DNA of 38,075 nucleotides from a virus. Position 1 is the first letter of the stretch; the number at the start of each line of letters is the position of its first letter. Shown in pieces: positions 11,709-26,742 of the stretch. The notes under the pieces were generated by a model that saw only the letters and a program-made list of their open reading frames with translations, was not told where the DNA came from and made no database searches. Location: IMG/VR virus record IMGVR_UViG_3300043331_002192, positions 1 to 38,075 of that record. One strand, given 5' to 3'. A program made the position numbers and the translations under genes.

Positions 11709-13961
11709 ATGTCGCTCAGCATTCAACGTCCCTCCATCCCGAATCCTCTCAGCATTGCGCGGGGCGGTACGGGCGCCCAGACGGCGCCAGCGGCCCGGGA
11801 CGCCCTCGGGTTGGGCGATGTCGCTACGCTCACCGCGCCTGGCGGCACGACGACGTTTCTGCGCGCCGATAAAACGTGGGCCGTGCCGCCTGGCGGGGGC
11901 GGCGGCGGGCTCACCGTCGAAGACGTGCAGGATACCGTCGCCGCCATGTTCCCCACCTCGGCGAGTCTGGACTTTACCTATAACGATACGGCGGGCACCA
12001 TCGCCGCTGAGGTGCGCTTTGGCGGCGTCACGGAAAATCACCTGAGTTTCAGCGACACGACGGCTGACAACGCCAGCACCGGCCAGCACGGCCTGCTGCC
12101 GAAGCTCTCAGGGACGCCCACGCAGTACCTGGATGGCAGCGGGGCCTGGAGTACCCCGGCGGGCGGCGAGAGCTATTGGACGCGCGGCACGGGCTACAGT
12201 GCCCTCAGGAACAGCCTCGTGGCGTATTGGACGCTCGACGAAGCCAGCGGCACGCGGGCCGATAGCGCCGGGGCCAATACGCTCACGGATATGGGCAGTG
12301 TCACGCAGGCCACCGGCAAACTCGGGCAGGCCGCGCAGTGCAGCGGGGCGGCGGCGAACTACCTGCGCATCGCCGACAACGCCGCGCTGAGTATGGGCGA
12401 TATCGACTTTACCGTGGCGGCCTGGGTGTATCTCGATGTGGTCACGGCCACCAACGTGGTGCTCTCCAAGGGCAACGACGCCGGGGGGACCGGGCAGACG
12501 GCCTATACGCTTCAGATCCTCAATGGGCAAGCGCAGTTCTTCGTGGGTTCGGGTTCCGCGCGTGCCCAGGTGAACAGCAGCGTCACCATGAGCGTCTCGA
12601 CCTGGTACTGGGTGTGCGCCTGGCATGACAGTGTGGGCAATACCATCAACATCAGCGTCAACGATGGCACCGCCGTGTCGCAGGCCTGGGCGAATGGCTC
12701 CTTTGACGACACCTTTGAGCTGTGCCTGGGCCGCTACGCCAATTATAACGGGGGGCTCTTTCGGGGGCGCATCGACAGCGTCGGGATCTGGAAGCGGCTG
12801 CTCACCGGCGCCGAACGGACCAGCCTCTATAACGCCGGGGCAGGTCTGGACCATCCCTTTGCCGGGACCGGGGCCCCCGCCCTCCAGCCCACCACCATCA
12901 CGGATACGCTGCTCCTTGCACCCACGGCCACCTCCCCGGAACGCCTGGAGGTGGACGGCGCGTTGAAGCTCGGCAACGCGCTCGGGACCGTGGACGGCAC
13001 GCTGCGCTGGAGCGGCACCGACTTCGAGGGCCGCAAGGGCGGGGCCTGGGTGTCGCTCGTGGGCGGCACGATGGCCACGCAAAACGCCAACGCCGTGGCG
13101 ATTACGGATGGCGCCATCAGCCTGGGCGGGCACACGCCGACGGGTGTGCTGGATGTGCAGGGGAGTGTGGCAGCCTCGGATATGACGCCAGGGCGCTATT
13201 TTGCTGTGCGCATTTGGCCAGTGGCGCCAAGCGGAGCAGTACAGGTAGATGGCCTGCGGGTGGAAGTGCCGACTGGTGCGGGGGTGGGCAGTGCAGGGAT
13301 GCGTGCCATTTGTATAGCTGATCCCCCCGCGAGTACGGCCCTGGTACGCGGGCTAGAAGTGAATATCAGTAGCGGGACGAATCGTGCCGCAATTCACTGC
13401 GGCGGCACCGCGCCCTCCTATTTTGGCGGCACGGTGCAGGTGGTGGGGACGCTGGGGCTTAATACGCCGCCGGTCAGCACGATACGCCTGGATATGCTCT
13501 ATGCGGGCGGCAGTGAGTATGCCATCCAGATGAAGAGTAGCACGGCCTCTGCCTCCACCTCCGTGCATTTTTTGAACAACAGCGGGACGCCCGTGGGTTC
13601 GATCACCCATACCACCTCTGCGACCGCCTACAACACGTCGTCCGACGCCAGATTGAAACGCAATATCGCTCCCCTCACCGACGCCCTGGCCCGCGTGCAG
13701 GCGCTGCGGCCGGTGGCCTTCCGGTGGAACGCGGATGATTCCGCCGATGAGGGCTTCCTGGCCCATGAGGCCCAGCAGGTGGTGCCGCATGCCGTGCAAG
13801 GATTGCCGGACGAGGTCAACCCTGATGGCAGTATCAAGCCCCAGCAGATTGACCATAGTAAACTGGTGGTGTGGCTCACGGCCGCGCTGCAAGACACCGT
13901 GGCGCAGCTCACCGCCGTGACGGCGCGGGTGCAGGCGCTGGAAGAGGCGCTGGGGGTTTAG
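11709..13961 (+). CDS. Tail fibre with LamG-like domain and C-terminal S74 autoprotease-chaperone
   Basis: This encodes 750 residues with AGGAGGG at 11695-11701. The N-terminal ~45 residues have the GGTGA-type motif common in phage fibres. Residues about 165-385 resemble a LamG/concanavalin-like jelly roll (an AYWTLDE start and an RIDSVGIWKRLL end). This is a likely glycan-binding module. The last ~110 residues are a peptidase S74 intramolecular chaperone, with the SDxRLK signature at S645-K650. The Ser and Lys are five residues apart, as in the catalytic dyad known for this family. A final coiled coil follows (QDTVAQLTAVTARVQALEEA). S74 domains trimerise the fibre and then cut themselves off. 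The stop overlaps the convergent minus-strand gene by 4 bases. Confidence 0.85.
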   Translation: MSLSIQRPSIPNPLSIARGGTGAQTAPAARDALGLGDVATLTAPGGTTTFLRADKTWAVPPGGGGGGLTVEDVQDTVAAMFPTSASLDFTYNDTAGTIAAEVRFGGVTENHLSFSDTTADNASTGQHGLLPKLSGTPTQYLDGSGAWSTPAGGESYWTRGTGYSALRNSLVAYWTLDEASGTRADSAGANTLTDMGSVTQATGKLGQAAQCSGAAANYLRIADNAALSMGDIDFTVAAWVYLDVVTATNVVLSKGNDAGGTGQTAYTLQILNGQAQFFVGSGSARAQVNSSVTMSVSTWYWVCAWHDSVGNTINISVNDGTAVSQAWANGSFDDTFELCLGRYANYNGGLFRGRIDSVGIWKRLLTGAERTSLYNAGAGLDHPFAGTGAPALQPTTITDTLLLAPTATSPERLEVDGALKLGNALGTVDGTLRWSGTDFEGRKGGAWVSLVGGTMATQNANAVAITDGAISLGGHTPTGVLDVQGSVAASDMTPGRYFAVRIWPVAPSGAVQVDGLRVEVPTGAGVGSAGMRAICIADPPASTALVRGLEVNISSGTNRAAIHCGGTAPSYFGGTVQVVGTLGLNTPPVSTIRLDMLYAGGSEYAIQMKSSTASASTSVHFLNNSGTPVGSITHTTSATAYNTSSDARLKRNIAPLTDALARVQALRPVAFRWNADDSADEGFLAHEAQQVVPHAVQGLPDEVNPDGSIKPQQIDHSKLVVWLTAALQDTVAQLTAVTARVQALEEALGV

Positions 13962-14254
13962 GGAGACGCGGAGACGCGAGGACGCGAGGACACGGCGACA
14001 GGGAGGTCTCCGGCAGTCCCTCGCCGCGTCGCCGCGTCGGGGTTCGTCGCCGCGTCTGGTCCCTCGTGGCCGTTCTCCCCCTGCCCGGTGCTGCTCTCCA
14101 GCAGGCGGATCAGGCGTTCGCTGATCCCCAGTTGCTGGCGGTTACACTCCTGGAGTTCGGCAATGGCCGTCCGCAGATCATCATGGATATGTTGACTATG
14201 CTGCATCATGGCGAACAGGTCACGGAGAAAGCGTTCGACTTCGTTGGGTTCCAT
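13958..14254 (-). CDS. Small coiled-coil protein of unknown function
   Basis: This encodes 98 residues. GAGGAGG stands 7 bases before the ATG at 14254, a strong ribosome-binding site. Residues 1-55 form an amphipathic helix with alternating charged and hydrophobic residues (for example FLRDLFAMMQHSQHIHDDL). Its pattern resembles the coiled-coil proteins at 22694 and 27789. The C-terminal ~40 residues are encoded by a hairpin repeat of the GACGCG family (13962-14058) and are probably disordered. The gene converges on the tail fibre and overlaps its stop. It follows the membrane gene at 14446 on the same strand, so the two may work together, perhaps in lysis control. Confidence 0.6.
   Translation of the reverse strand: MEPNEVERFLRDLFAMMQHSQHIHDDLRTAIAELQECNRQQLGISERLIRLLESSTGQGENGHEGPDAATNPDAATRRGTAGDLPVAVSSRPRVSASP
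13962..14058. repeat. Hairpin repeat, GACGCG family, copy 1
   Basis: The left arm holds tandem units of the type GAGACGCG/GAGGACGCG. The right arm holds the complementary CGCCGCGTC units, so the element can fold back on itself. It encodes the C-terminal end of the 13958-14254 gene. A related element is at 26339-26421. Confidence 0.75.
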
Positions 14255-14272
14255 AGGGCAACCTCCTCGCGG

Positions 14273-14446
14273 CTAGCGCTGGTCGGGCAGGCGGCGCAGC
14301 ACTTCCTGCGTCATGCGCTGGCTCTCGCGGGTAAGATCCTGGCTCTCGCGCAACAGCCGGGTCATGACGATGGTGCCATAGATCGCATAGCCATAGAGGC
14401 CAGCGACGAGGACAAAAATGGCGGCGGTGATGACGTGATGATCCAT
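14273..14446 (-). CDS. Small single-pass membrane protein (holin-like candidate)
   Basis: This encodes 57 residues starting at 14446, with AGAGGTG upstream. An N-terminal hydrophobic helix at about residues 6-27 is followed by a charged helical tail (LLRESQDLTRESQRMTQE). The layout of one transmembrane segment and a charged helix is seen in small holins, antiholins and spanin-like inner-membrane proteins. Longer in-frame starts further upstream lack a ribosome-binding site. The gene is 18 bases from the next minus-strand gene, and the pair forms a two-gene unit pointing towards the late operon. The holin role is inference only. Confidence 0.6.
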   Translation of the reverse strand: MDHHVITAAIFVLVAGLYGYAIYGTIVMTRLLRESQDLTRESQRMTQEVLRRLPDQR

Positions 14447-14545
14447 AGGACACCTCTCTACAGGTTGAAGGTGATAGGGCTCCAGGCTGGTAGAGCACCC
14501 TGGAGGTTGCCAGCGGATGCGCGGCCGCTCCCTACCACCCGTCGG

Positions 14546-14575
14546 AGTATAGCATACGCATACCAAAAAGGAACG
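14546..14575 (-). promoter_or_regulatory. Candidate extended -10 promoter for the 14446-13958 unit
   Basis: On the minus strand TGC-TATACT occupies 14554-14546, with a weak GTTCCT -35 element 17 bases further upstream. It points at the membrane and coiled-coil genes. The -35 match is poor, so confidence is limited. Confidence 0.4.
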
Positions 14576-14579
14576 ATGT

Positions 14580-14867
14580 ATGCCTCTCGTACAATTGGAA
14601 TCGGACACGCTCGCCAAACTCTTCGCCTTGTGTAAGACCATGGAGTTCGACGTGCAGCCCAAACTTGCCCAACTGGACGCCATCTACAACAGCGCTGGCG
14701 GCGTCAAGGAGACGCTGACGCAGGAGGAGTTAGACGAGGTGCCGGGCCTCTCCGGCTTGCAGAAGCAGACCGTGGACGATGGCGTCTTCGCCCTCACCAG
14801 CGGCGTCTTGACCGCCCTGGTGAATGCGTCGGCCGCGTTGAGTCAGCTCGCCGCCCGCACCCTATGA
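14580..14867 (+). CDS. Small helical protein of unknown function
   Basis: This encodes 95 residues with AAAAGGAA a few bases upstream. It is predicted mostly helical, with an acidic first half and an Ala/Leu-rich C-terminal helix (ALVNASAALSQLAA). There is no signal peptide. It is the first gene of a plus-strand group of four (14580, 14864, 15170, 15541) located after the tail fibre, where many temperate phages keep lysis genes. It overlaps the next gene by ATGA. I do not recognise the family. Confidence 0.65.
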   Translation: MPLVQLESDTLAKLFALCKTMEFDVQPKLAQLDAIYNSAGGVKETLTQEELDEVPGLSGLQKQTVDDGVFALTSGVLTALVNASAALSQLAARTL

Positions 14868-15139
14868 GCGCGCTCCACAGCGCCTGCACGACCCGCCTGA
14901 CGCAGCTCCGGCAGGATCTGGTGCACGGCCGCCGGCAGGTGCAGGCCCTCCAGGAGACGCTGCTGCGCATCGAAGGGGCGGTGCAGGTGCTGGAAGAGGT
15001 GCTGGCGGAAGGGGGGAGGGAGCAGGGAGTCAGGGAGCAGGGGGGGGATCCGGATCCGGCCCCTCGTGCCTCACTCCCTCCCTCCCTCACTCCCTGCCCC
15101 GCGCCGAAGGAGCCGTCCGTGCCGCTGGCGGGCTCCTAG
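14864..15139 (+). CDS. Coiled-coil small protein with repeat-encoded tail
   Basis: This encodes 91 residues and overlaps the previous gene by ATGA. Residues 8-48 form a heptad-like helix (LTQLRQDL, VQALQETLLRIEGAVQVLEE). From about residue 50 the sequence is low-complexity Gly/Pro/Ser/Arg. It is encoded by a GGGAG-family hairpin repeat (15011-15100), so the original C-terminus was probably extended or replaced by the repeat. The role is unknown; a soluble or periplasmic coiled-coil partner in the same cassette is possible. Confidence 0.55.
   Translation: MSALHSACTTRLTQLRQDLVHGRRQVQALQETLLRIEGAVQVLEEVLAEGGREQGVREQGGDPDPAPRASLPPSLTPCPAPKEPSVPLAGS
15011..15100. repeat. Hairpin repeat, GGGAG family, copy 1
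   Basis: G-rich direct units (GGGAGCA, GGGAGTC) on the left face complementary CTCCCTG/ACTCCCT units on the right. The centre holds a TCCGGATCC palindrome and CCCCTCGTGCC. The element lies inside the end of the 14864 gene. Other copies are at 15551, 19276 and 25074. Confidence 0.85.
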
Positions 15140-15169
15140 GGGCCTCCGGGGCCAGAAACGAGGTGTGCG

Positions 15170-15541
15170 GTGGCCGACGACGCGAGCCCGGAGCCGAAGC
15201 CGTCGCCGTCCTGGCTGCAGACGCTCCTCACCCACCACGTCGCGGTGCTGGCGCTGGGTGGCGCGCTCGGGGCCGCCGTCTTGCCGGTGTGGCAGGAGGT
15301 GAAGGCCTGGCGGCTCGGGGTGGCCGCGTCGAGGCTCCAGATTGCCGAAGAGCAGGCACAGCTCTGGCAGCGCAACCTCGACTGCCTCCAGCAGGGGAGC
15401 CAGTGGGAGGTGGACGGCCCGCGCGGCCTGGTGCTGCGCGTCACCGTGTGCGCCCAGACCGGGGATCTGCTGGTGCGCTATTACGCGAACGATTGGGCGC
15501 CCACCTTTCGCTGGGTCCGGGCGCCGGAAGGGCAGCCCTGA
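15170..15541 (+). CDS. Single-pass membrane protein, inner-membrane spanin-like candidate
   Basis: This encodes 123 residues from a GTG at 15170. A Pro/Ser-rich N-terminus is followed by one hydrophobic helix (about residues 18-42). A charged helical stretch comes next (VAASRLQIAEEQAQLWQRN, about 49-67), then a strand-rich end. It shares a TGATG stop/start with the downstream lipoprotein gene, so the two are translationally coupled. A membrane-anchored periplasmic helix coupled to an outer-membrane lipoprotein is the architecture of two-component spanins. The strand-rich C-terminus is unusual for a spanin. The function is inferred. Confidence 0.6.
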   Translation: MADDASPEPKPSPSWLQTLLTHHVAVLALGGALGAAVLPVWQEVKAWRLGVAASRLQIAEEQAQLWQRNLDCLQQGSQWEVDGPRGLVLRVTVCAQTGDLLVRYYANDWAPTFRWVRAPEGQP

Positions 15542-16209
15542 TGCCGGGAAAGGGAGTGAGGCACGAGGGAGTCAGGCACGAGGGGGGAGTCCGGATCCCC
15601 CCCTGCTCCCTCACTCCCTGCTCCCTCACTCCCTGCCCTTGCTCTCTCCTCGTGCTCTGCCTCCTGCTCCTCACCGCCTGCCCTGGCCCCAGGGCGCAGG
15701 TGGTCCTCCTCGACGCCAGCGGACCGCTCGCGGTCACCACCGCCCGCACGACGCAGGTCCTCACCACCCCCTACGCCACCGCCGCCGTCCGCGCCAGCGG
15801 CCAGGTGGAGGCCGGCACCACCACCCCGGCGCAGGTGCAGGCCCGCTTTGGCCCGGTGCTGGCGACACTGCCCGTGGCGGGGCGCGTCTATACCCTCTAT
15901 TTCGCCCCAGGCGGCACGACCCTCACGCCGGCATCCGAGACGACCCTGGGGGAGGCCCTGGCCGACATCGCCCAGCGTGCCGTATGCGAGGTGGAAATGA
16001 CGGGGCATACGGATACGGTCGGGGAGACCCTCGCCAATGACCGCCTGGCCCTGGAGCGGGCCGAGGCGGTGCGGGCGCTGCTCGTGGCGCGAGGGATGAC
16101 GGCGGCGTTCGTGCGGGTGGTCGGGCGCGGGGAGCGGTCGCCCGTCGTCGCCACGCCGGACGCGACGGCGGAGCCCGCCAACCGTCGGGTGGAGGTGCTG
16201 GTGCGGTAG
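15541..16209 (+). CDS. OmpA-family lipoprotein
   Basis: This encodes 222 residues. A hydrophobic stretch (SLLVLCLLLL) ends in the lipobox LTAC at Cys47, so the mature protein should be lipidated and anchored in the outer membrane. The C-terminal ~110 residues are an OmpA-type peptidoglycan-binding domain, with FAPGGTTLTPAS, TGHTDTVG and a final NRRVEVLV. The first ~33 residues before the hydrophobic core come from a GGGAG-family repeat (15551-15638), giving an abnormally long signal-peptide n-region. Phages rarely encode OmpA lipoproteins. Its place after a coupled membrane protein suggests a spanin-like or envelope-remodelling role, or a lysogenic conversion factor. Confidence 0.8.
   Translation: MPGKGVRHEGVRHEGGVRIPPCSLTPCSLTPCPCSLLVLCLLLLTACPGPRAQVVLLDASGPLAVTTARTTQVLTTPYATAAVRASGQVEAGTTTPAQVQARFGPVLATLPVAGRVYTLYFAPGGTTLTPASETTLGEALADIAQRAVCEVEMTGHTDTVGETLANDRLALERAEAVRALLVARGMTAAFVRVVGRGERSPVVATPDATAEPANRRVEVLVR
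15551..15638. repeat. Hairpin repeat, GGGAG family, copy 2
   Basis: GGGAGTGAGGCACGA units on the left pair with TCACTCCCTG/CTCCCTCACT units on the right, with TCCGGATCC in the centre. It encodes the N-terminal ~33 residues of the OmpA lipoprotein precursor. Confidence 0.85.
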
Positions 16210-16229
16210 CCCCCGCGCCCCGCCCTGGC

Positions 16230-16541
16230 TCATCGCCGCCCCTCCACACTCGCCCGCAGGGCCGCATGCACGTGCGCCCCTTGCCGCGCGCGCCGGCGCG
16301 CGCGTTCCACCGCCTGCTGCCAGGGGTCGGTGCGGTCCCGCGTGCGGTCCTCCCACTGTGCTGGTGTCAGCGGCGGGGTGGTCTGGTGCACGACGCCATC
16401 GGCCCAGACGCGGCGCTGGCAGCGTGGACACACCCAGCACAGCCACACCGGGTAGTAGCCCTCCAGGTCCACCAGGCCCAGGTCCAGGCGCAGCAGGGGC
16501 CGCCAGGGGTGCGTGGTGAGATCGGGGGTGCAGCGGGTCAT
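16230..16541 (-). CDS. Small Cys-containing protein, end of the early operon
   Basis: This encodes 103 residues starting at 16541; the much longer upstream reading frame is a shadow of the next gene. The core has CWVCPRC around residues 35-41, a zinc-knuckle-like CxxC arrangement. An Arg-rich helical C-terminus follows (VERARRRARQGA). The start overlaps the stop of the upstream gene (ATGA), so it is the last gene of the leftward operon that begins at 20493. It converges on the OmpA lipoprotein gene, with 20 bases between the two stops. The function is unknown. Confidence 0.6.
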   Translation of the reverse strand: MTRCTPDLTTHPWRPLLRLDLGLVDLEGYYPVWLCWVCPRCQRRVWADGVVHQTTPPLTPAQWEDRTRDRTDPWQQAVERARRRARQGAHVHAALRASVEGRR

Positions 16542-16795
16542 GCCTCCTCCTCGCGGACGATCGCCGTCGTCACCGGCCGCCTCCCCCAGCCATCGTGCGG
16601 CACCTCCTGGCGCGGCCCGTCCTGCGCCCGTCTGGCCACCTCCGTCTCCCACGCCGCCACCGGCACCACCCGCCGCTGCGCGCAGCCCTGCCAGCCGCAG
16701 ACCACGTAGACGACCTGCCCGCTCGCCGCGGGCGTGGCGTTGGAGGCCGCCCAGAGTGGGTGGATGGCGTTGCACGCGAGCTGGGCGCGGGTCAT
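16538..16795 (-). CDS. Small protein of unknown function
   Basis: This encodes 85 residues, overlapping both neighbours by four bases. The middle holds VCGWQGCAQ, a CxxxC pair. The end is acidic (IVREEEA). It is one of a run of tiny overlapping genes in the leftward operon. No family was recognised. Confidence 0.6.
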   Translation of the reverse strand: MTRAQLACNAIHPLWAASNATPAASGQVVYVVCGWQGCAQRRVVPVAAWETEVARRAQDGPRQEVPHDGWGRRPVTTAIVREEEA

Positions 16796-16974
16796 GGCGT
16801 CTCCTCCCCCCGCTCCCTGGCCGCCCCATCGATCACCGCGTCGATAAGCCCGTCCAGCCGCTCGACCAGCGCCTCCAGCGCCAGCTTCGTCGGCGAAAAG
16901 CGCAGGCGCTCCGCCTCGGCCTGGAGATCGTTGGTGATGTCGGAGAGCTGTGCAAACAGGTCACGCGTCTCCAC
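16792..16974 (-). CDS. Small helical coiled-coil protein
   Basis: This encodes 60 residues from a GTG at 16974. A strong GAGGAGG lies 5-9 bases upstream and an in-frame ATG further back (17040) lacks one. The protein is an amphipathic helix pair (LFAQLSDITNDLQAEAERL and LALEALVERLDGLIDAVID). It overlaps the gene on each side. The pattern suits a short coiled coil or an adaptor; no family was recognised. Confidence 0.6.
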   Translation of the reverse strand: METRDLFAQLSDITNDLQAEAERLRFSPTKLALEALVERLDGLIDAVIDGAARERGEETP

Positions 16975-17176: not shown

Positions 17177-17430
17177 GGCGGGTCTCCCACTGGGCGAAAG
17201 CGTTCCAGGCGCACCATCCCATCGCACCACGCTGGATCGATCTGCCACCGCCGCGCCGCCGTGCACCGTTGCAGTCGTGTGACCCGCTCGTAGACGGCCA
17301 GGGCGTGACGGTACTCCGTGTCATCCTCCGCCGCCAGGGCCAGGCGTTGAACCTTCCTGATCCACGGCAACACGGCGCTCTGCTCGCAAAAACTTGTCCA
17401 GAGCAGGCGCCGCCGCGTGTCGTCGCTCAT
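17173..17430 (-). CDS. Small protein of unknown function in the early operon
   Basis: This encodes 85 residues starting at 17430, with GGGAGG nine bases upstream. It is rich in Arg, Trp and Leu and mostly helical; the longer frame upstream is rejected. It lies inside the 3' end of the IS630-like HTH frame (17321-17755), so one of the two overlapping frames is probably eroded. I favour this one for its ribosome-binding site and its overlap with the next gene. Confidence 0.55.
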   Translation of the reverse strand: MSDDTRRRLLWTSFCEQSAVLPWIRKVQRLALAAEDDTEYRHALAVYERVTRLQRCTAARRWQIDPAWCDGMVRLERFRPVGDPP

Positions 17431-17755
17431 GGCGCGGGTCCTCCCTCGTGCGGCCTCCCCGCGTCTCCCCCCTCCACCGGCGGTGCGCGAAGGCCCGGCG
17501 CGGCCGGTCGTGCAGCCCTGCCAGGCCCTGTGCCTGAAAGCGCCGCACCCAGCGGGACACAAACCGGCGGCTGATCCCCACCGCGTGGGCAATCTGCTGG
17601 ATCGGCATGCCCGCTTCCCGCAGGAGCAGGATCCGGCCCCGCCGGGCCAGGGCCGCCGGGGCCGTCGTCGCCCGCTGCCAGGCCAGCAGGGTCTGGCGCT
17701 CCTGCGGCGTCAGCGTTACCGTGAGCTGCGTGCGGCGGCCCGGTCCCTGGGGCAT
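17321..17755 (-). CDS. IS630-type helix-turn-helix protein without a transposase domain
   Basis: This encodes 144 residues from the ATG at 17755, with AAGGAG 6 bases upstream. Residues 10-85 match the N-terminal DNA-binding part of IS630-family transposases: LTPQERQTLLAW, then ARRGRILLLREAGMPIQQIAHAVGISRRFVSRWVRRFQAQGLAGLHDRP. The DDE nuclease half is absent. After about residue 90 the sequence turns Arg-rich and overlaps the gene at 17430. It may be a domesticated regulator or the remnant of an insertion that truncated the wHTH gene upstream. No terminal inverted repeats were found. Confidence 0.65.
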   Translation of the reverse strand: MPQGPGRRTQLTVTLTPQERQTLLAWQRATTAPAALARRGRILLLREAGMPIQQIAHAVGISRRFVSRWVRRFQAQGLAGLHDRPRRAFAHRRWRGETRGGRTREDPRHERRHAAAPALDKFLRAERRVAVDQEGSTPGPGGGG

Positions 17756-18503
17756 GGGGGGCTCCTTCGTCGTCACGTCCGAGACACGCGATCAGTCCAC
17801 GTACCCCGGCAAGATTGAGGTCACATTGTGCCAGATCCGGCTCAGGGGGCATCTGCGGGGGCAGCGTTATGGGAGCGGACATGGGGTTATTCCCCTGTCC
17901 AAAAAAGAGAGAAAAATGTTCCCGTACCACGGGAGAGGTAGGAGAGGGATCTTTTCTCTCTCTTTCAGTCTCTCCGGAAGTCTCTTCTTTCTCTGAGTCA
18001 TTAATACAAGTTCCCGAAACGTCAACTTGCAAGTTCCCCAAAGGTAAACTTGCAAGTTCCCCAAAGGTAAACTTGTAAATGCCTGGTTCCATAATGTTTT
18101 CAAGGGATTGCATCACGACATGGACATTGAGATGGATATGGATCATGCGCAGATGGTGGAAGTGAAATCGGCGGATGGTAATGAAGCCTTTCTCGACCAG
18201 CACGTCAGAACCGCGATCAAATTGCTTCGGGGAAAGCCGGCATTCGTCCCGCCACTCGGTGCGTTTTTTGACCAGCCACCAGCGGTCCTCCTTCCAGGCA
18301 GCACAGCCCTGCACGCACATCCGATGCAGGCCCCCGTTTTTGGGTGGCAAGTGCCAATAGAGGATCTGACTGAGCAGCAAGCCTGCGACGACATCGCCTC
18401 CAGCCAGATCGATATAGAGACGCTTGCAGTCGATGGCATCACGGGATTTGCTTTCCCAGCGCACAAACGCGGCAGGCAGGACGGCACACTCCTCAGGTGT
18501 CAT
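17427..18503 (-). CDS. wHTH protein, candidate replication initiator with iterons in its gene
   Basis: This encodes up to 358 residues from the ATG at 18503, which overlaps the end of its paralogue. Residues 1-110 are a winged-helix-like domain (RLYIDLAGGDVVAGLLLSQI, then RWWLVKKRTEWRDECRLSP) of the type seen at the start of phage replication proteins. Codons about 137-167 contain four 23-bp iterons, as the lambda O gene contains its origin. An acidic linker follows (SEKEETSGETERERKD). From about residue 250 the frame is a Gly/Pro/Ala-rich shadow of the HTH gene at 17755, so the genuine C-terminus is probably lost or frameshifted. The initiator role is inference. Confidence 0.6.
   Translation of the reverse strand: MTPEECAVLPAAFVRWESKSRDAIDCKRLYIDLAGGDVVAGLLLSQILYWHLPPKNGGLHRMCVQGCAAWKEDRWWLVKKRTEWRDECRLSPKQFDRGSDVLVEKGFITIRRFHFHHLRMIHIHLNVHVVMQSLENIMEPGIYKFTFGELASLPLGNLQVDVSGTCINDSEKEETSGETERERKDPSPTSPVVREHFSLFFGQGNNPMSAPITLPPQMPPEPDLAQCDLNLAGVRGLIACLGRDDEGAPHAPGTGPPHAAHGNADAAGAPDPAGLAAGDDGPGGPGPAGPDPAPAGSGHADPADCPRGGDQPPVCVPLGAALSGTGPGRAARPAAPGLRAPPVEGGDAGRPHEGGPAP
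18001..18092. repeat. 23-bp iterons, candidate replication origin
   Basis: Two perfect 23-bp direct repeats lie at 18024-18046 and 18047-18069. Degenerate copies flank them at 18001-18023 and 18070-18092. Each perfect unit contains the palindrome ACTTGCAAGT followed by CCCCAAAGG. A purine-rich/pyrimidine-rich tract adjoins at 17946-17995. Because 23 is not a multiple of three, the repeats are conserved as DNA and not as protein. Confidence 0.7.
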
Positions 18504-18957
18504 GGCGCGCGTCGCTCCCCTGGCTGTGCCACGGGATCTTCCACCAGGCGTCCTCATGCTCGACGCGCATCATGTGCGTGAGATCCAGATGCAGGCAGAG
18601 AATTTTGGTGTCGCCTTTGGTCACGGTCCCACGCATCACAAACCCCTTGGTGCACAGCAGGTCACAGGCGGCATCGAATTGCTCGGGCGTGATCCGGCAT
18701 TCGTCCCACCACTGGTCACGGCTGGTCATCAGCCACCAGCGGCCATGATCGTAGACCCCGGTGCCGGCGTTTTGGAGCCGGATGCCGCCCTGCGGTGACT
18801 CGGGCAGATACCAGTCAATGAGCGCGCTGAGCAGGACTCCGGCGACCAGATCACCGGCGAGATCGATATAGAGGCGTTGGACGGTAATGGTGTCACGCGA
18901 CGCCAGGTCCCATGCCACAAACCTGTCCCAGCCGTTGGGCTTTACGTCGTCTGCCAT
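18493..18957 (-). CDS. wHTH protein, paralogue of the candidate initiator
   Basis: This encodes 154 residues starting at 18957, with AGGAGG six bases upstream. It is clearly homologous to the N-terminal part of the next gene: QRLYIDLAGDLVAGVLLSALIDWYLP matches its counterpart, as do GRWWLM and WWDECRITPEQFD. The tandem paralogy suggests duplication and division of labour between a short DNA-binding form and a longer initiator form. It lacks the iterons and linker of the downstream copy. It may be a replication accessory protein, a regulator of initiation or a helicase-loader adaptor. Confidence 0.6.
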   Translation of the reverse strand: MADDVKPNGWDRFVAWDLASRDTITVQRLYIDLAGDLVAGVLLSALIDWYLPESPQGGIRLQNAGTGVYDHGRWWLMTSRDQWWDECRITPEQFDAACDLLCTKGFVMRGTVTKGDTKILCLHLDLTHMMRVEHEDAWWKIPWHSQGSDARHDT

Positions 18958-18967: not shown

Positions 18968-19189
18968 CTAGAACCCATGGCTATCGTGCAGGAGTGTGTC
19001 GTCTGCCATCAACTTGTACATACTCTCTTTGACGTCGTCTTCCGTGTAGCCGGTTTTGTAGGCAATAGCGCCGATGGGAATGACCCGTGGTGGCCACTGA
19101 TCGAACGCATCGGCATACGCCATGAGGATGAATTTCTCCCTGGGCGGCAGTCGCAAACGCCAGACCTGTGCCATCATGTCCAGACTCAT
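18968..19189 (-). CDS. Small wHTH-type protein
   Basis: This encodes 73 residues from 19189, with GAGGAGA eight bases upstream; the longer frame to 19393 includes repeat-encoded residues and is rejected. RLRLPPREKFILMAYADAF followed by VIPIGAIAYKTGYTEDDVKESM has the pattern of the winged-helix start of phage replication proteins, a conserved helix followed by a sensor-like turn. It stands directly upstream of the two larger wHTH genes and probably belongs with them in DNA replication. Confidence 0.6.
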   Translation of the reverse strand: MSLDMMAQVWRLRLPPREKFILMAYADAFDQWPPRVIPIGAIAYKTGYTEDDVKESMYKLMADDTLLHDSHGF

Positions 19190-19455
19190 ACGCGTGTCTC
19201 CTCGCCTGTCTTCCCCCCAAACACCTCCCCCTGCCCGTCCTCCGCCGGCGCCGCGCCCTCCACCAGCCCTTGCAGGGGCAGGGAGCAGGGAGGCAGGGAG
19301 CAGGAACGAGGGGGGAACTTCGGATCCGCCCCTCGTGCCTTGCCCCTCACTCCCTGACTCCTTTCCCGAGCCACCAGCCGGGGGTACAGACACACGCGCA
19401 ACGCCAGCTCACGACGCGCGCAGGCGAGCTGGGCGCGGAGGGAGATGTCAGGCAT
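19186..19455 (-). CDS. Small protein interrupted by a GGGAG-family repeat
   Basis: This encodes 89 residues starting at 19455. The first ~30 residues are an amphipathic helix (LRAQLACARRELALRV). Residues about 32-60 are Pro/Ser/Arg-rich and encoded by the hairpin repeat at 19276-19361. The last ~25 residues are acidic and Gly-rich (DGQGEVFGGKTGEE). The repeat therefore appears to have been inserted in frame between two original segments. The start overlaps the previous stop through ATGCCTGA. The function is unknown. Confidence 0.55.
   Translation of the reverse strand: MPDISLRAQLACARRELALRVCLYPRLVARERSQGVRGKARGADPKFPPRSCSLPPCSLPLQGLVEGAAPAEDGQGEVFGGKTGEETRV
19276..19361. repeat. Hairpin repeat, GGGAG family, copy 3
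   Basis: GGGAGCA/GGGAGGC units on the left pair with TCACTCCCTGACTCC on the right, with an inner TTCGGATCCG and CCCCTCGTGCC core. It lies in frame inside the 19186-19455 gene. Confidence 0.8.
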
Positions 19456-20553: not shown

Positions 20554-20597
20554 TTTTTCATCATGGCTTGTGATACCGTGTCTAGGCAGGGTGGAAA

Positions 20598-20606
20598 TGC
20601 TAGAAT
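20598..20606 (+). promoter_or_regulatory. Extended -10 promoter for the CI-like gene
   Basis: TGC-TAGAAT ends 6 bases before the ATG at 20613. This spacing puts the transcription start at the A of the ATG, so the mRNA should be leaderless, as for lambda cI from PRM. No Shine-Dalgarno bases are present. Confidence 0.6.
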
Positions 20607-20625
20607 TTATGCATGAGTCGCATAA
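20607..20625. promoter_or_regulatory. Operator O3 over the repressor start
   Basis: TTATGC-ATGAGTC-GCATAA is a perfect 6-7-6 palindrome that covers the start codon of the CI-like gene. Binding here would give negative autoregulation. Confidence 0.75.
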
Positions 20626-20999: not shown

Positions 21000-21006
21000 A
21001 GCGAGT

Positions 21007-21252: not shown

Positions 21253-21266
21253 CGGCTCCCCATAGC

Positions 21267-22040
21267 TCAAGCCAAGGGGTTTACGGGAGAACCGCTAAGA
21301 GGGAAACCATGCGCCGACCACGTGGCTGCTGGTCTCTGGTTGGGATTGTCTGCCTTGCATGGCTTGTCGCATGCGAACTCCCAAGTGGTGACGAAACCCA
21401 GGACACACCAACTCCACAGCCCGTGGAACCCGCTACGCCTGCACCCCCGCAAGACACCATCGTGGTTGGCGGGCAGGGCTGTTGCCCGGCACGCTGTCCC
21501 ACCTGTCGGCAGTGTCGGACAGGCAAGGCGTGTGGCGATACGTGCATCAGCATGCTGGATACATGCCGCATCCCTGAGCCTGGCTGTGCCTGCAATGCCC
21601 TCTAGCGGCAGGGGGCGGCCCGGCCGCCCCCTGGTGTGCTCTTTCCCCCTACACCACGTGTCACCCACTTTGTGACTCCACCAGCTCCCGCGCTGATTGC
21701 TCTGGTGCTTCATCTGCACGCCGTGCAGTGCACACCAGCCTTCGGGTGTCTCGGCAGGTGCGGCTGGCGGCGTTCCTGGGGACGCAGGCTGTGCATCTGG
21801 TGCTGGCGTGTCGAGGAGCCCGCGCACGGCGGCGACGTTGGCGCGAAAGGTGTCCGGGCTCTGCCCCCGGATCGTGAGCATCGCCGTATGGCCGCCTATC
21901 GTGCCGTGAATCGTCAGACTAAAGGCCGCCTCAGGCAGCGGCTCCGGGGCCGCCCAGGCCGGGCCGCTGGGGTCGGTGGGGCCGTAGAGGTCATCGATCA
22001 GGGCCTTGCATGTCGGGGTCGGGGTTGCTATCGTTGCCAT
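21267..22040 (-). CDS. Zinc-finger protein whose end runs antisense through the lipoprotein gene
   Basis: This encodes 257 residues from the ATG at 22040, with GGAAGGAAG just upstream (the longer frame to 22100 is rejected). Residues 1-100 are Pro/Ala-rich around a strand-rich core (SLTIHGTIGGHTAMLTIRG). Residues about 103-130 contain C103, H106 and C130 in an arrangement like the zinc finger at the end of the SWIM protein at 26029. From about residue 145 the frame is antisense to the lipoprotein gene and crosses its terminator-like hairpin, so the native end was probably near residue 135 and has been lost. It belongs to the leftward unit starting at 22323. Confidence 0.55.
   Translation of the reverse strand: MATIATPTPTCKALIDDLYGPTDPSGPAWAAPEPLPEAAFSLTIHGTIGGHTAMLTIRGQSPDTFRANVAAVRGLLDTPAPDAQPASPGTPPAAPAETPEGWCALHGVQMKHQSNQRGSWWSHKVGDTWCRGKEHTRGRPGRPLPLEGIAGTARLRDAACIQHADARIATRLACPTLPTGGTACRATALPANHDGVLRGCRRSGFHGLWSWCVLGFVTTWEFACDKPCKADNPNQRPAATWSAHGFPLSGSPVNPLA
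21309..21605 (+). CDS. Cys-rich lipoprotein
   Basis: This encodes 98 residues from the ATG at 21309 with GAGGG upstream. A typical lipoprotein signal ends with LVAC at Cys22. A Pro/Thr linker (TPTPQPVEPATPAPP) follows, then a compact Cys-rich domain with about a dozen Cys residues (CCPARCPTCRQC, CRTGKACGDTC and CACNAL), likely disulfide-bonded in the periplasm. It is third in the CI-like operon and is a good candidate for a lysogenic conversion or superinfection-exclusion protein on the outer membrane. Confidence 0.75.
   Translation: MRRPRGCWSLVGIVCLAWLVACELPSGDETQDTPTPQPVEPATPAPPQDTIVVGGQGCCPARCPTCRQCRTGKACGDTCISMLDTCRIPEPGCACNAL
21609..21633. terminator. Hairpin after the lipoprotein gene
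   Basis: CAGGGGGCGGCC and GGCCGCCCCCTG form a near-perfect 12-bp palindrome centred on one C, 4 bases after the lipoprotein stop. There is only a weak T-rich stretch downstream (CTCTTTCC). It could terminate both the plus-strand CI operon and the convergent transcript. Confidence 0.5.
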
Positions 22041-22081
22041 TGTCTTCCTTCCCATGGGGAGATACTGTCTGTGGTAGTGAT

Positions 22082-22109
22082 CCCCACCAGGTCTTGCCAC
22101 CTGGTGGGG
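22082..22109. other. Hairpin between two minus-strand genes
   Basis: CCCCACCAGGT (22082-22092) pairs perfectly with ACCTGGTGGGG (22099-22109), loop of 6. It sits between the stop at 22120 and the start at 22040 and lacks a U-tract, so it may process or attenuate mRNA between the two genes. Confidence 0.45.
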
Positions 22110-22119
22110 GTCCGTTGCG

Positions 22120-22323
22120 CTACGCCGCCTGTGCGGCTTCCCACTGCTCGGCCAACTCGTCGGCGGCGTCTTCCTCGGCGACCTGGGCGTAGAACTCCTC
22201 GATGGCTTGCTTCAAGAGCCACTCACGCTCGATGCGTTGGATGTTGTCCTCCTCAATCGCCTTGTACCAGTCGGTCTGATCTTTCGCGCTGAACCTGCCC
22301 CCTTCGTTGCGTCTGCGTTCCAT
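22120..22323 (-). CDS. Small acidic helical protein, first gene of the second leftward unit
   Basis: This encodes 67 residues starting at 22323. The protein is highly charged and helical (DNIQRIEREWLLKQAIEEFYAQVAEED). It faces the XRE gene at 22474 across about 150 bases that contain palindromic operators. It is probably repressed by that XRE protein. The family was not recognised. Confidence 0.6.
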   Translation of the reverse strand: MERRRNEGGRFSAKDQTDWYKAIEEDNIQRIEREWLLKQAIEEFYAQVAEEDAADELAEQWEAAQAA

Positions 22324-22368
22324 CTTCTGTCCTTTTGTTTGGGTTGTTGTGTGACTGTCAATACTTAT

Positions 22369-22406
22369 ATTTTACCCATGAGTAAAATATTACACAAGGG
22401 TAAAAT
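22369..22406. promoter_or_regulatory. Operator/promoter of the second regulatory region
   Basis: ATTTTAC-CCATGA-GTAAAAT (22369-22388) is a palindrome of 7-6-7. ATTTTACCC at 22369-22377 is also inverted as GGGTAAAAT at 22398-22406. On the minus strand TTGTGT (22397-22392) is 17 bases from TAAAAT (22374-22369), a plausible promoter for the 22323 gene. The sites do not resemble the other two switch regions. Confidence 0.65.
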
Positions 22407-22473
22407 GCACCTGTGGACTATTTTTTTTACATGTGGCATACTTATGAGAGGCATGCACAGGGAGGATATGTCG

Positions 22474-22701
22474 ATGGACATTGTTGGCGAACGGATTATG
22501 CTCACACGGAAACGCCAGCGGATGGCACAGAAAGATCTCGCTGGCGCCATTGGGATGAGTCAAAAGCACTTGTCACAAATTGAAACGGGCATCAAGCATG
22601 GTCTGCATCTGCGCGCTGATGCGGTCATCCGGCTCGCAGACGCACTGCATGTCAGTACGGATTATCTGCTTGGTAGGTGTGAGGAGCCCGCCCATGCCTG
22701 A
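22474..22701 (+). CDS. XRE-family repressor of the second switch
   Basis: This encodes 75 residues. The ATG at 22474 is chosen because GGGAGG is eight bases upstream; the ATG at 22468 is too close to it. The HTH spans about residues 8-60 (MAQKDLAGAIGMSQKHLSQIETG, then RLADALHVSTDYLLG). Residues SADYLMG and EEPAHA at the end are closely matched by the XRE protein at 27527 (SADYLMGLTDEP). Both are followed by a small coiled-coil gene, so the two cassettes look paralogous. The last codons overlap the next start via ATGCCTGA. Confidence 0.75.
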   Translation: MDIVGERIMLTRKRQRMAQKDLAGAIGMSQKHLSQIETGIKHGLHLRADAVIRLADALHVSTDYLLGRCEEPAHA

Positions 22702-22870
22702 GCCCGACTTCAACGCCCAACTGGCCAGCCACGACGACATCTTGCGCCACCTGGTCGCGCTGGTCGTCAAGATGGACCAGGTGATTGACGAACTCAAAGC
22801 CGGGCAGGGGCTCATCATCGAACTCTTGCAACGCCGCGAGGGTGGCACCGCAACCAATGGTAGCCACTAG
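22694..22870 (+). CDS. Small coiled-coil protein linked to the XRE repressor
   Basis: This encodes 58 residues starting with the ATGCCTGA overlap. It is one amphipathic helix (HDDILRHLVALVVKMDQVIDELKAGQGLIIELLQ). Its pattern of ILR-LV-M-D-VI-D corresponds to the coiled-coil protein at 27789. It may be a dimerisation partner, antirepressor or oligomerisation module for the small repressor. The stop overlaps that of the convergent integrase. Confidence 0.6.
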   Translation: MPEPDFNAQLASHDDILRHLVALVVKMDQVIDELKAGQGLIIELLQRREGGTATNGSH

Positions 22871-24033
22871 GCGCCCCCCAGTGCCGCCTTGACCGCCTCC
22901 CCCACTTGCTCTGCTGCAGCCTGCACGGGATGGCCCACCAGATGCGCGTAGCGCTGCGTCGTTTGCGGCTCCACGTGTCCGAGCAGTGCCCCGATCATGG
23001 GCAGTGACAACCCCCCACGCGCGGCCACGGCGGCATAGGTGTGCCGCAGATCGTGCAGGCGCACATCCTCTAGCCCGGCCGCACCGCGCAGGCGCTTCCA
23101 GGGTTTCTGCGGGTTGGCGAGTGGACGACCGTGCACCCGTCCTGGCACACACCACGGGTTGCCCTCCACCCTGGGGAGCTGCGCGAGCACGGCCCTGGCG
23201 GCGTCCGAGAGATAGAGCGTCTTTGGTCCGGTTTTCGAATCGGCCAGCCGCACGCGCCCGGCCTGCCAGTCAATCCGTGCCCACTGGAGGCCCAGGACCT
23301 CCCCTCGTCTCGCGCCGGTGAGTAAGAGCAGGCGTACCATGGCGATGACCGACGGGCTTTCGGTGCGCTCGATCTCCGCCCGCGTGAGCACCTCCCCAAG
23401 TCGTGCCAGCTCCTGCGCCGTGAGATGCCGCTCCCTGGCCTGTTCCCGGTAGCGCTCGATACCTTTCACGGGATTCGTCCCCGACTCCCGCAGTCCCCAC
23501 TGCTCGGCCAGGTTGCACATCTTCGAGAGCAGGGCCAGCACCCGGTTGGCGGCGCCTGGGGTGGCGCGCATGCCGTGATGGAGCCGGGCCATGTCGGCCC
23601 GCGTCAAGGTCTCCACCCGCGCTGTCCCCAGCACCGGCAGCACGTGCAGGCGCATATTAACGTGATCCATCTTGGCGCTCCGGGGTTTTTTCTTCGCGTC
23701 GGCATGCTCCAGCAAATAGCGCTCGGCCAGGTCGGCCACCGTAGGCGCCTGCCGCATGGCCTGCCGTGCGCCAGCGGGATCCTGGCCGTAGCGCACCCCC
23801 CGCAGGTATTCCTGCGCCAACACGCGCGCATCATCAAGGGCGAGCGCCCCCACCTTGCCCAGCGTGACCCGCCGCTGGCGCGCACCCCTTCCCCCCAGCA
23901 CGCGGTACTGCACGATATACGATTTCTGCCCTGAGCGGCCGCGCACCCCGAAGCCCGGGATCTGGTCATCCCAGACAAAGTGATCGCCCTCGGCACTGAG
24001 CTGTGCGAGCAGACGTGATGTCAGCCGTGGCAT
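22867..24033 (-). CDS. int: Tyrosine-family integrase
   Basis: This encodes 388 residues from the ATG at 24033, with GGGAGG upstream (a longer frame to 24099 is unlikely). The N-terminal DUF4102-like arm-binding domain (residues 1-95) and the SAM-like core-binding domain (about 98-190) precede the catalytic domain. The catalytic residues are visible: R242 (TGARRGEVL), K267 (SKTGP), H327 and R330 (HDLRH), H353 (GHVEP) and Y362. It catalyses integration and excision between attP and a tRNA-Arg gene. The gene is transcribed away from attP, which lies about 200 bases upstream of its start. Confidence 0.95.
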   Translation of the reverse strand: MPRLTSRLLAQLSAEGDHFVWDDQIPGFGVRGRSGQKSYIVQYRVLGGRGARQRRVTLGKVGALALDDARVLAQEYLRGVRYGQDPAGARQAMRQAPTVADLAERYLLEHADAKKKPRSAKMDHVNMRLHVLPVLGTARVETLTRADMARLHHGMRATPGAANRVLALLSKMCNLAEQWGLRESGTNPVKGIERYREQARERHLTAQELARLGEVLTRAEIERTESPSVIAMVRLLLLTGARRGEVLGLQWARIDWQAGRVRLADSKTGPKTLYLSDAARAVLAQLPRVEGNPWCVPGRVHGRPLANPQKPWKRLRGAAGLEDVRLHDLRHTYAAVAARGGLSLPMIGALLGHVEPQTTQRYAHLVGHPVQAAAEQVGEAVKAALGGA

Positions 24034-24087
24034 AGGCACCTCCCTGTGGTGTGAGTGTGTCGGCGTTCCCACCACGCAGCCTACCAT

Positions 24088-24352
24088 AGTGGGAAGCACC
24101 GGGGAAGCACCATGTAGAGATTTGTAGAGATTTTAGGAGATATAGAGAGATATAAGGAGAGCACCAGAGCATGTAATGAGTGATAATTAGCGATAGATAG
24201 AGTTCTCTGGAGACTAGGAGAGATATGGTGTGCGTCTGACTTCTAATCCGAGGGTCGGGTGTTCGAATCACCCAGGGGGTACTCATGAAATCAATAGATT
24301 ATAGGAAGTGGTGTGGTGCTTCCATCGCCAGTGGGAAGCACCGGGGAAGCAC
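24088..24352. other. attP region with integrase arm-type sites
   Basis: The tRNA 3' segment (core) lies at about 24236-24281. It is flanked by two identical 23-bp direct repeats at 24088-24110 and 24330-24352. GGAAGCAC occurs at 24092, 24103, 24334 and 24345 and inverted at 24316; these are probably arm-type integrase sites. Tandem GAGATAT-like repeats at 24115-24165 may bind integrase or host bending proteins. The 405-base gap between the genes at 24033 and 24439 contains nothing else recognisable. Confidence 0.8.
24236..24281 (+). other. tRNA-Arg(UCU) 3' fragment, attP core
   Basis: The anticodon loop CTTCTAA is at 24240-24246 with anticodon TCT at 24242-24244. The T arm GGGTG-TTCGAAT-CACCC is at 24257-24273. 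The acceptor 3' strand AGGGGGT is at 24274-24280 and the discriminator A at 24281. The 5' half of a tRNA is absent, so this is a partial gene that restores the host tRNA after integration. Confidence 0.9.
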
Positions 24353-24438
24353 GAGACGGCAGCTTCCACCGCCAGGCTGCAGCAGGGATAGTACTGCTGC
24401 AGCGGTATCATGGGTATCGGCGTGTCTCTGCATTGGTT

Positions 24439-25023
24439 CTACAAGTGGCACGCCTCGACTAAGACTTTCTCGATGGCCTCATCCAGGCTGCCTGACACCG
24501 TGAGCTTTGCCCGTTGTATCTCTTTATCCGTATACACTTTGAAATGGCCGATGCGTTGTTGCTCCGTAAAGTAGATGACAAAAGGTTGTGCTCCCGTAAA
24601 CCCTCCAAACGAATTTTTGGCATTGACTGTTCCGCAGACGAGGGAGCCCCAGGGAAGGGCGGTATACCGGATCTGCCGGGAAGCGGGATCTTTGAGCAGG
24701 AGTGAGAACGCGACATCAATGCGTGATTGATAATCAGCCGGGCGTGGAATCTTCTGGAGCCCGGCAAGCATCCCTGCGACCCTCTCCTGATGTTCCCGTT
24801 CTGCCTCTTGGCGTCTGGCAATGGCTTGTGCCTCTTCTGCGGCCTGGTGTTCTTTGGCTTCAGTGTGTGCATTGCGCAATATTGGTCTGGTATCTCTCTG
24901 ACAGGGACGATCTTGGTAGATCGTCTTACCATCAGGTGCAGGGCATTTGTATACATCCGCACTGGCCAGCCCTGGCAGGCTCAGGGCCAGCGTCAACGTC
25001 AGGGTCAGTAGGGAGGTACGCAT
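24439..25023 (-). CDS. Secreted DUF4124-type protein
   Basis: This encodes 194 residues starting at 25023. A signal peptide ends near ASA|DV at residue 23. DVYKCPAPDGKTIYQDRPC immediately follows, the usual start of DUF4124 proteins of Gram-negative bacteria. A charged helix spans residues about 55-95 (EAKEHQAAEEAQAIARRQEAE). A C-terminal strand-rich domain of about 90 residues follows with one Cys (SLVCGT). It lies next to attP, a position where lysogenic conversion genes are common, and is the last gene of the leftward operon. Its effect on the host is unknown. Confidence 0.8.
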   Translation of the reverse strand: MRTSLLTLTLTLALSLPGLASADVYKCPAPDGKTIYQDRPCQRDTRPILRNAHTEAKEHQAAEEAQAIARRQEAEREHQERVAGMLAGLQKIPRPADYQSRIDVAFSLLLKDPASRQIRYTALPWGSLVCGTVNAKNSFGGFTGAQPFVIYFTEQQRIGHFKVYTDKEIQRAKLTVSGSLDEAIEKVLVEACHL

Positions 25024-25073
25024 ACGTCTCTCTTTCGTGTATCTGGGGTGTTGTGTGGTCTCTCTGGTTGAGG

Positions 25074-25170
25074 AACAGGGAGCAGGGAGTAAGGGAGTGA
25101 GGCACCAGGGTGGGAAGGGGGAGTCCCCTCCGAACCCTCGTTCCTGACTCCCTCGCCCCTTCCTCCCTGT
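25074..25170. repeat. Hairpin repeat, GGGAG family, copy 4
   Basis: GGGAGCA/GGGAGTA units pair with TCCTGACTCCCTCG and related right-arm units. This copy is intergenic, between the stop at 25292 and the start of the DUF4124-type gene at 25023. Its centre (AGTCCCCTCCGAACCC) is the most diverged of the four. Confidence 0.75.
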
Positions 25171-25291
25171 CCTCGCCTATCGGCATCTCCCCGCCGGCGC
25201 TCCATCAGGCACACCCTGATTCGCGTGTCGGTGTTTCCTTGACACGCGCCGGCGGGGTGGGGCGCCGCCGCGGGCGCCCGGGGCGTGGGGC

Positions 25292-25561
25292 TTACGCGGC
25301 GTGGGAACCCCACCGCACGGCGGCCCTGGCGCGGGCGGCCTCCGCCACCGTGGTCAGGCAGTCGCAGCGGGGACAGAGCGCGTTGCCATGCGGCGCGTCC
25401 AGGCAGGGGCAGGCGGCCATCTCCAGGGCCAGGGCCTCCCAGACCGCGTGCAGGGTGAGTAGCGCGAACAGATCGGCGACCGTGGGCAACGTCGGCTCCT
25501 CGCGCAGGGACCGGCGACAGTCCCAGCAGCCGGGGTCGCCGCACATGCAGGGTGCCTGCAT
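25292..25561 (-). CDS. Small Cys-rich protein
   Basis: This encodes 89 residues starting at 25561, where the previous stop overlaps (TGATG). It has CMCGDPGCWDC near the start and CPC and CPRCDC in the second half, giving at least eight Cys residues and perhaps two zinc sites. A hydrophobic helix (ADLFALLTLHAVWEALALEMA) joins them. The gene follows a Cys-rich neighbour and shares its transcript. The family was not recognised. Confidence 0.6.
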   Translation of the reverse strand: MQAPCMCGDPGCWDCRRSLREEPTLPTVADLFALLTLHAVWEALALEMAACPCLDAPHGNALCPRCDCLTTVAEAARARAAVRWGSHAA

Positions 25562-25950
25562 CACCGCACCGCCTGCGCCAGCCGCGCCTCGAGGTCCTGC
25601 GGGTCGATATCGCGCCAGCGCGCATCCTCCTTGCGTCCGTCGCCCAGGAGCGTTGGCGCATACCCGATCGCATAGGTCGTGCCATCGGTGAGAATCCACT
25701 GGTGCTCGTCCGCTTCCCACGCGGCAAGCGCCTGCTGTGGATCGTCGGTGAGGCACACGGGGCCGATGGGATTGCCGTAGCGCTCGAACTCGATGTCGAC
25801 ACACTTATACACCACGGTGCAGGTCGCATCGCACGCGAGGCATGAACATGCGAGGTTGGCGTAGACGTTGGTCTCATCCGGCTTGTCGTCCATATGGAGG
25901 CGTGTCGAACCACAGACGGGACAGTGGACACGCCAGTCAGTGAACTGCAT
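25561..25950 (-). CDS. Zinc-ribbon protein of unknown function
   Basis: This encodes 129 residues starting at 25950. It begins with WRVHCPVCGSTRL, followed by ACSCLACDA around residue 35-43, so CPVC and CLAC form a four-Cys ribbon. The rest is strand-rich, with YGNPIGPVCLTDDPQQALAAW. It may bind nucleic acid. It is coupled to the next gene by TGATG. Confidence 0.6.
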   Translation of the reverse strand: MQFTDWRVHCPVCGSTRLHMDDKPDETNVYANLACSCLACDATCTVVYKCVDIEFERYGNPIGPVCLTDDPQQALAAWEADEHQWILTDGTTYAIGYAPTLLGDGRKEDARWRDIDPQDLEARLAQAVR

Positions 25951-26028
25951 GATACCTACTCCTTCATGTATGGGAAGAGGGAGCCCATGCTCCCCAGGGT
26001 ATGTTCATTTTTGTTTCCGACCTGCAGG

Positions 26029-26742
26029 CTAGTTCTTTGGGAACCGCTCTTTACAATAGCTCCCATCAAAGAGCTTCTTGCTGCAGAAAAACGTCCCCGG
26101 CGCCTTGCTCGACTGCTTCATCGGTCCGTGCACCGGGCACGTCGGCGTGGCCGGTGCCGCGTCGCCGTTCGGCGACACGATGGCCGGCGCGGGGGTCGCC
26201 TCCGGGAATCGCGCCAGCACCGCCTGCACACGGGTGAACAGCCGCTCCTCGTCGAGGTCGCGCAAGGTCACCTGGCATTCCCGCCCGTCGATCAGGACGC
26301 GCACGTTCACGGACGCCGGGGCCTCGGGGAGGGGGGCAGACGCGGCGAAGGGGTGACGCGGCGACGCGGGGAAGAGCGCTCCCGTCCCCGTGTCCCCGTG
26401 TCTCCGTGTCCCCGCGTCGCCCTGCTGGGCGTGCAGCAGCTCGCTGGCGCGGCGGTAGAGCTGCACCGCCAGCTTGTGCTTGCACAACCCCTGGGGCGCT
26501 TTCGGCGCATCCATGCACGTACAATTGCCATTGACCCGGTACCAGGTCTGGCCGTCGCTGGAGCGCACCTGCGCGTGGCGGCCGTCCTCGCCCAGCCATA
26601 CATGCCCGCCCAGCACGAGCGCCGTGGCACGCTCCAGGTGGCCGTGGACGCTCTTGTCCAGCCGCGCGTGCGCCAGCTCACTCACGTGCAGCACCGCGTC
26701 ACGAAAAGTGGTGAGCCGCGCTGACGCGGCGGAGAGGTCCAT
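26029..26742 (-). CDS. SWIM zinc-finger protein with a second C-terminal finger
   Basis: This encodes 237 residues starting at 26742. Residues 74-89 have the SWIM pattern CxC...CxH (C74, C76, C87, H89) after a strand-rich start (ALVLGGHVWLGEDG). The middle (about 108-132) is encoded by a GACGCG-family hairpin repeat. A short strand-rich domain (about 143-180) follows, and C202, H205, C220 and C230 form a further finger like the one at 22040-21267. SWIM domains bind DNA or proteins, often in recombination and transposition-linked factors. The starting gene 26743-26970 ends directly before it. Confidence 0.75.
   Translation of the reverse strand: MDLSAASARLTTFRDAVLHVSELAHARLDKSVHGHLERATALVLGGHVWLGEDGRHAQVRSSDGQTWYRVNGNCTCMDAPKAPQGLCKHKLAVQLYRRASELLHAQQGDAGTRRHGDTGTGALFPASPRHPFAASAPLPEAPASVNVRVLIDGRECQVTLRDLDEERLFTRVQAVLARFPEATPAPAIVSPNGDAAPATPTCPVHGPMKQSSKAPGTFFCSKKLFDGSYCKERFPKN
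26339..26421. repeat. Hairpin repeat, GACGCG family, copy 2
   Basis: GCGGCGA and GACGCGGCGACGCGG on the left pair with CCCCGTGTCCCCGTGTCTCCGTGTCCCCGCGTC-type units on the right. It is read in frame in the 26029-26742 gene. Confidence 0.7.

Follow-up and report, generated by a model that had tools for sequence, protein, structure and literature searches.

The window examined in this study, that is, the whole stretch of DNA analysed, is an IMG/VR virus contig of 38,075 bases with about 64% GC. With genes for a tape measure protein, a tail fibre, a large terminase, a portal and head proteins, together with a tyrosine integrase and repressor-like genes, it is, judged by gene content, a temperate tailed phage. 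Scattered over this genome are six hairpin elements of 80-100 bp, assigned to a GGGAG and a GACGCG family (Table 1), in which arms of tandem 7-8-nt units, variable in number and with regular mismatches, enclose a near-palindromic centre that often reads GGATCCGGATCC. A preliminary description had reported six such elements, all of which were recovered where it placed them, with refined spans. It had also counted three copies of a common core, which holds for two of them: the exact TCCGGATCC is present in E1 and E2, whereas the core of E3 is one change off (TTCGGATCC). Its reading of five elements as in frame was borne out for each (E1 and E5 at the C-terminus, E2 at the N-terminus, E3 mid-protein, E6 in a mid-protein linker), and for the gene carrying E3 the reading frame is not that of the longest ORF.

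Table 1. Positions of the hairpin elements and of the genes associated with them in the window
Feature	Positions	Strand	Description
E1	15010-15101	+	GGGAG family, centre GGATCCGGATCC; in frame, C-terminal tail of gene 14864-15139(+)
E2	15550-15636	-	GGGAG family with centre TCCGGATCC, inverted relative to E1; in frame, just past the start codon of 15541-16209(+)
E3	19276-19367	+	GGGAG family, centre TTCGGATCC; in frame, mid-gene in 19186-19455(-)
E4	25075-25172	-	GGGAG family; non-coding, leader of the DUF4124 gene 24439-25023(-)
E5	13962-14056	-	GACGCG family; lies right behind the tail-fibre stop codon; in frame, C-terminus of ORF 13958-14254(-)
E6	26339-26419	-	GACGCG family; in frame, linker of gene 26029-26742(-)
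Gene with E1	14864-15139	+	Small coiled-coil-like protein; orthologs
Gene with E2	15541-16209	+	OmpA-family lipoprotein; PF00691 match, orthologs
Gene with E3	19186-19455	-	Small gene, start MPDIS; ortholog in G070
Gene downstream of E4	24439-25023	-	DUF4124; PF13511 match
Gene with E6	26029-26742	-	Zinc-finger-like two-domain protein, linker holds E6

A palindrome scan that uses no motif gave six sites in the window with a score of at least 36, against none in 20 local dinucleotide shuffles (maximum 35.2). E1-E4 and E6 make up five of these sites (scores 36-44), the sixth lying near 27911, and these five elements are beyond chance. E5 scores 31, which by that measure alone is within the range of the shuffles, and its support comes from homology to an element of the phage G086. 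The RNA-fold z-scores of the six elements range from -2.5 to -5.3.

Other repeats are found in the same genome. Three 23-bp palindromic repeats (CAAGTTCCCCAAAGGTAAACTTG) at 18007-18078, within the ORF of a DnaD-like helicase loader (17427-18557, - strand), resemble the iterons of an origin lodged in a replication gene, of which lambda O is an example; a similar repeat occurs near 22031 in G083, and another palindromic array near 5611 in G075. Short direct repeats (TGTAGAGATT, TAATGAGCGA) at 24091-24195, upstream of the integrase, are possible integrase arm sites, and the palindromic stretch at about 27867-28020 (score 36) is without tandem-unit arms.

Distribution among phages

Related phages were collected with a terminase search, which gave one close relative (G001), and with a search for the protein encoded at 412-1596, which has no relative among cultured phages and led to further contigs, most at 71-76% identity and two at 90%. 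The resulting comparison set consists of about 20 related partial contigs, most of them read whole and G076 to base 39,000 of 39,959. Scans of viral contigs with degenerate patterns are reported among the matches listed.

The elements resemble each other over their full length, also at loci that are unrelated. E1 and the reversed E2 align end to end over about 87 nt, E1 matches an element of G073, a related phage, equally well, and E5 aligns over about 90 nt with the element G086b of an unrelated phage, including the odd stretch GACGAACCCC; all three alignments score 9-10 SD above 8-mer-permuted controls. The centre is common to different arm families: it reads GGATCCGGATCC between the GACGCG arms of G086b and GGATCCGAACTTCC between arms of another type in G081. 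The six hairpins are thus dispersed copies of whole elements and not hairpins of independent origin.

More in-frame copies are present in other phages, namely in G081, G084, G086 (in two genes) and G088. The unrelated 21.7-kb contig G089 (L381) carries four GGGAGTA hairpins that are 91-98% identical, at 4507, 9873, 10901 and 17883, and each of them has a ribosome-binding site and a start codon immediately downstream; on the + strand, their flank ACTGAAAGGAGC was found only in this contig. A different hairpin in the viral contig L415, at about 2505, with CCCCTCACCCC and CCCTCTCCC-type arms, is built around TCCGGATCC. When viral contigs were scanned with the core only, 122 sites among the matches listed were examined and almost all of them had no hairpin arms, and a scan with the right-arm motif gave, beyond G073 and G074, just one sequence, an unrelated one that recurs in three contigs. 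The plasmid and phage collections gave no useful match to the elements.

The comparison of relatives with and without an element, as proposed in the preliminary description, was carried out and yielded empty sites at E1, E2, E4 and the locus of the G073 element. At the last of these, among the 14 contigs in which both 35778-36134 and 36144-36485 have orthologs, G073 and G074 carry the same element in a gap of 99 nt between the two genes, and every other contig has a gap of 9-10 nt; several of these contigs are near-duplicates, so that about ten lineages are empty at this site. The element in G073 starts straight after the stop codon, beside a G-rich ribosome-binding site. Eight orthologs of the gene with E1 have an ordinary acidic tail in place of the element, six orthologs of the gene with E2 start directly with the signal peptide, and the leader that holds E4 is continuous and element-free in G070, G075 and G081. 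The sole ortholog found for the gene with E3 (G070) has unrelated sequence at the position of the element, and the ORF with E5 has no comparable ortholog among the related contigs. Inspection by eye of E4 and of the G073 element, whose limits are known to within a few nt, revealed no target-site duplication. The empty sites in relatives show that the elements are insertions, and the claim that they are inserted and dispersed is upheld by these sites together with the full-length copies at non-homologous loci. A single position shared by all relatives, combined with no occurrence in bacteria, which had been named as the contrary outcome, is not the pattern observed.

The gene with E6 shows the most varied picture. 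In its product, the linker with the element joins a zinc-finger-like N domain to a C domain, and among 13 orthologs the GACGCG hairpin is present in the window and in G067, a GGGAG hairpin in the linker of G075, and short CCCTCTCCC..GGGAGAGGG palindromes in those of L512 and L514; G070 has a probable relic of a short CCCTCTCCC palindrome, and G076, G081, L513 and L515-L517 have other linkers with no hairpin. As the linker is 87% and the N domain 81% identical between the window and G067, their two GACGCG hairpins probably go back to one shared event. At least three palindrome families have entered this one linker; the number of independent insertions, judged by eye, is a minimum. An AlphaFold model of the window protein with its orthologs gives a pLDDT below 50 for residues 110-137, between two better-predicted parts, and the segment encoded by E6 is thus predicted to be a disordered linker between folded domains. 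The linker is also a domain boundary: the N domain and the element are common to the window and G067, and the C domain is of the G075/G076/G081 type in the window and of the G070 type in G067.

All coding copies are read in frame, and element-free orthologs are known for comparison. A special design of the elements for six-frame openness was considered and rejected, as the coding copies are no more open than dinucleotide shuffles, except the one in G081. There is consequently no sign that the elements are shaped for coding, and that in-frame copies survive in tolerant places suffices to explain the in-frame habit.

Source of the elements

The exact 19-nt arm pattern of the GGGAG family was scanned over the genome_contigs collection, and the matches were mainly in Nostoc-group cyanobacteria (Nostoc, Tolypothrix) and in G002, a MAG of 62% GC whose title reads 'Lentisphaera araneosa'. 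G002 has 90 arm matches at up to 2 mismatches and contains dispersed GGGAG hairpins, which sit inside a longer dispersed repeat with CGACCTGTGCAA/TTGCACAGGTCG ends, so hairpins of such a kind do live in bacterial chromosomes. The search of bacterial assemblies that had been suggested recovered GGGAG arms and hairpins, and not the full element with its core: the core pattern is missing from six bacterial genomes with GGGAG matches (G002, Tolypothrix and four others), and the exact element, arms and core, was found in none of the bacterial genomes searched. A rich carrier was found neither among the relatives of G002, nor in a sample of Myxococcota (3 of 379 genomes matched), nor in a sample of Pseudomonadota, of which 16 of 398 genomes had the GACGCG pattern, at 1-4 copies each.

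Spread by a transposase, which the preliminary description had considered possible, found no backing. Y1_Tnp (PF01797) is present in 0 of 15 phage records, and in G002 no GGGAG hairpin stands beside Y1_Tnp genes; of the five full-length Y1_Tnp genes in that MAG, four have single GGGAG arms at a distance of about 0.8-1.4 kb. On these grounds a Y1 transposase of these phages or of G002 was set aside as the probable mover, and no mobility enzyme for the elements was found. A host origin, also proposed earlier, is likely: comparable tandem-unit arms exist in bacteria, without the core in the genomes tested. With the core pattern absent, no rich carrier and no Y1 gene in the phages, this origin, and movement in trans by an enzyme, are what I infer and not what I observe.

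Discussion

Palindromic repeats within genes are known from bacteria (PMC3733652, PMC10969869). The Rickettsia palindromic elements (RPE) are hairpins of about 150 bp, in several families, which occur in frame in many unrelated genes (PMC10969869, PMC3733652). The phage hairpins are likewise in frame in protein genes, as seen against element-free orthologs, but they reside in phages, measure 80-100 bp and have arms of tandem 7-8-nt units, the RPE being known here by description. REPs are palindromes of 20-40 bp, tagged on one side by GTAG or CGTC, and different REPs have been reported at about the same recB site in two Xanthomonas species (PMC3733652). The likeness to the REP/RAYT (TnpA_REP) system lies in dispersed, non-autonomous palindromes, some of them within genes; however, REPs are often linked to a Y1 transposase, whereas the phage elements are longer, have their end units inside the palindrome and no outer tag, so that neither the size nor the tag of GTAG/CGTC REPs fits them, and the phage records contain no Y1_Tnp. 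They are, like MITEs, small, non-autonomous and dispersed inverted repeats, but in the phage copies one sees neither terminal inverted repeats that stand apart nor, by eye at E4 and G073, a duplicated target site. Short tandemly repeated repetitive sequences (STRRs) are plain tandem arrays. The resemblance to those of heterocystous cyanobacteria, noted before, stands as regards the arms (tandem G-rich units of about 7 nt, and the 19-nt GGGAG arm in Nostoc and Tolypothrix) and goes no further than resemblance; the phage elements form hairpins around a conserved centre, and this centre is absent from the Tolypothrix genome tested. In their manner of working, the phage elements are like intragenic REPs or Rickettsia palindromic elements.

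I consider it likely that the elements are non-autonomous mobile palindromes, copied whole from a pool of repeats, most likely the host chromosome, and mostly neutral passengers. Whole elements would be copied from this pool, met in lysogeny or infection, to scattered sites in the phage genome in either orientation. Insertions would persist where the harm is small, in intergenic DNA or, read in frame, in disordered protein tails and linkers; they would add an RNA hairpin or a peptide of low complexity there, and most copies would probably be close to neutral. A bolder proposal, which I regard as rather doubtful, is that they form a distinct mobile class with a conserved near-palindromic centre of the GGATCCGGATCC type and exchangeable arms of different tandem units, moved by a host enzyme into unrelated phages, where they would supply new disordered linkers at the boundaries of domain exchange.

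Alternatively, the hairpins could be home-made from G-rich sequence such as ribosome-binding sites, with template switching providing an inverted copy and slippage expanding the units. The make-up of the arms, with tandem units in varying number and regular mismatches, is consistent with this, as is the place of the G073 element right behind a stop codon and beside a G-rich ribosome-binding site. However, hairpins of independent origin could not agree in their centre and over some 87-90 nt at unrelated loci and in unrelated phages, and because of this recurrence I think an origin in place improbable, although slippage may have reshaped the arms after arrival. Equally improbable is that the elements are inherited with the phage genes and kept for a function, be it as RNA hairpins in translation control or transcript stability or as selected protein spacers. 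The predicted RNA folds are strong, the four copies in G089 all precede start codons, and E4 and the G073 element lie in leaders or gene junctions; yet at each site most relatives are without a copy, coding and non-coding sites are both occupied, no terminator-like site is present in 13900-15700, and no Rfam family matches the elements.

The lowest likelihood falls to a spread among phages only, by homologous recombination via similar arms, with no bacterial pool and no dedicated enzyme. Related and unrelated phages do have elements in common, and the linker with E6 coincides with a boundary of C-domain exchange, but recombination requires homology at the target beforehand, of which empty sites such as that of G073 offer a few nt at most, and a bacterial MAG is rich in similar hairpins.

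A prokaryotic MITE review does not mention phages (PMC10969869), and a small search of the open-access literature gave no description of intragenic palindromic repeats in phages. Phages provide a clean test bed for such repeats, as related genomes are numerous, empty sites are clear, and a single linker has received three palindrome families or more; the way in which the repeats move, and a possible part of theirs in the making of protein linkers, can be studied there.
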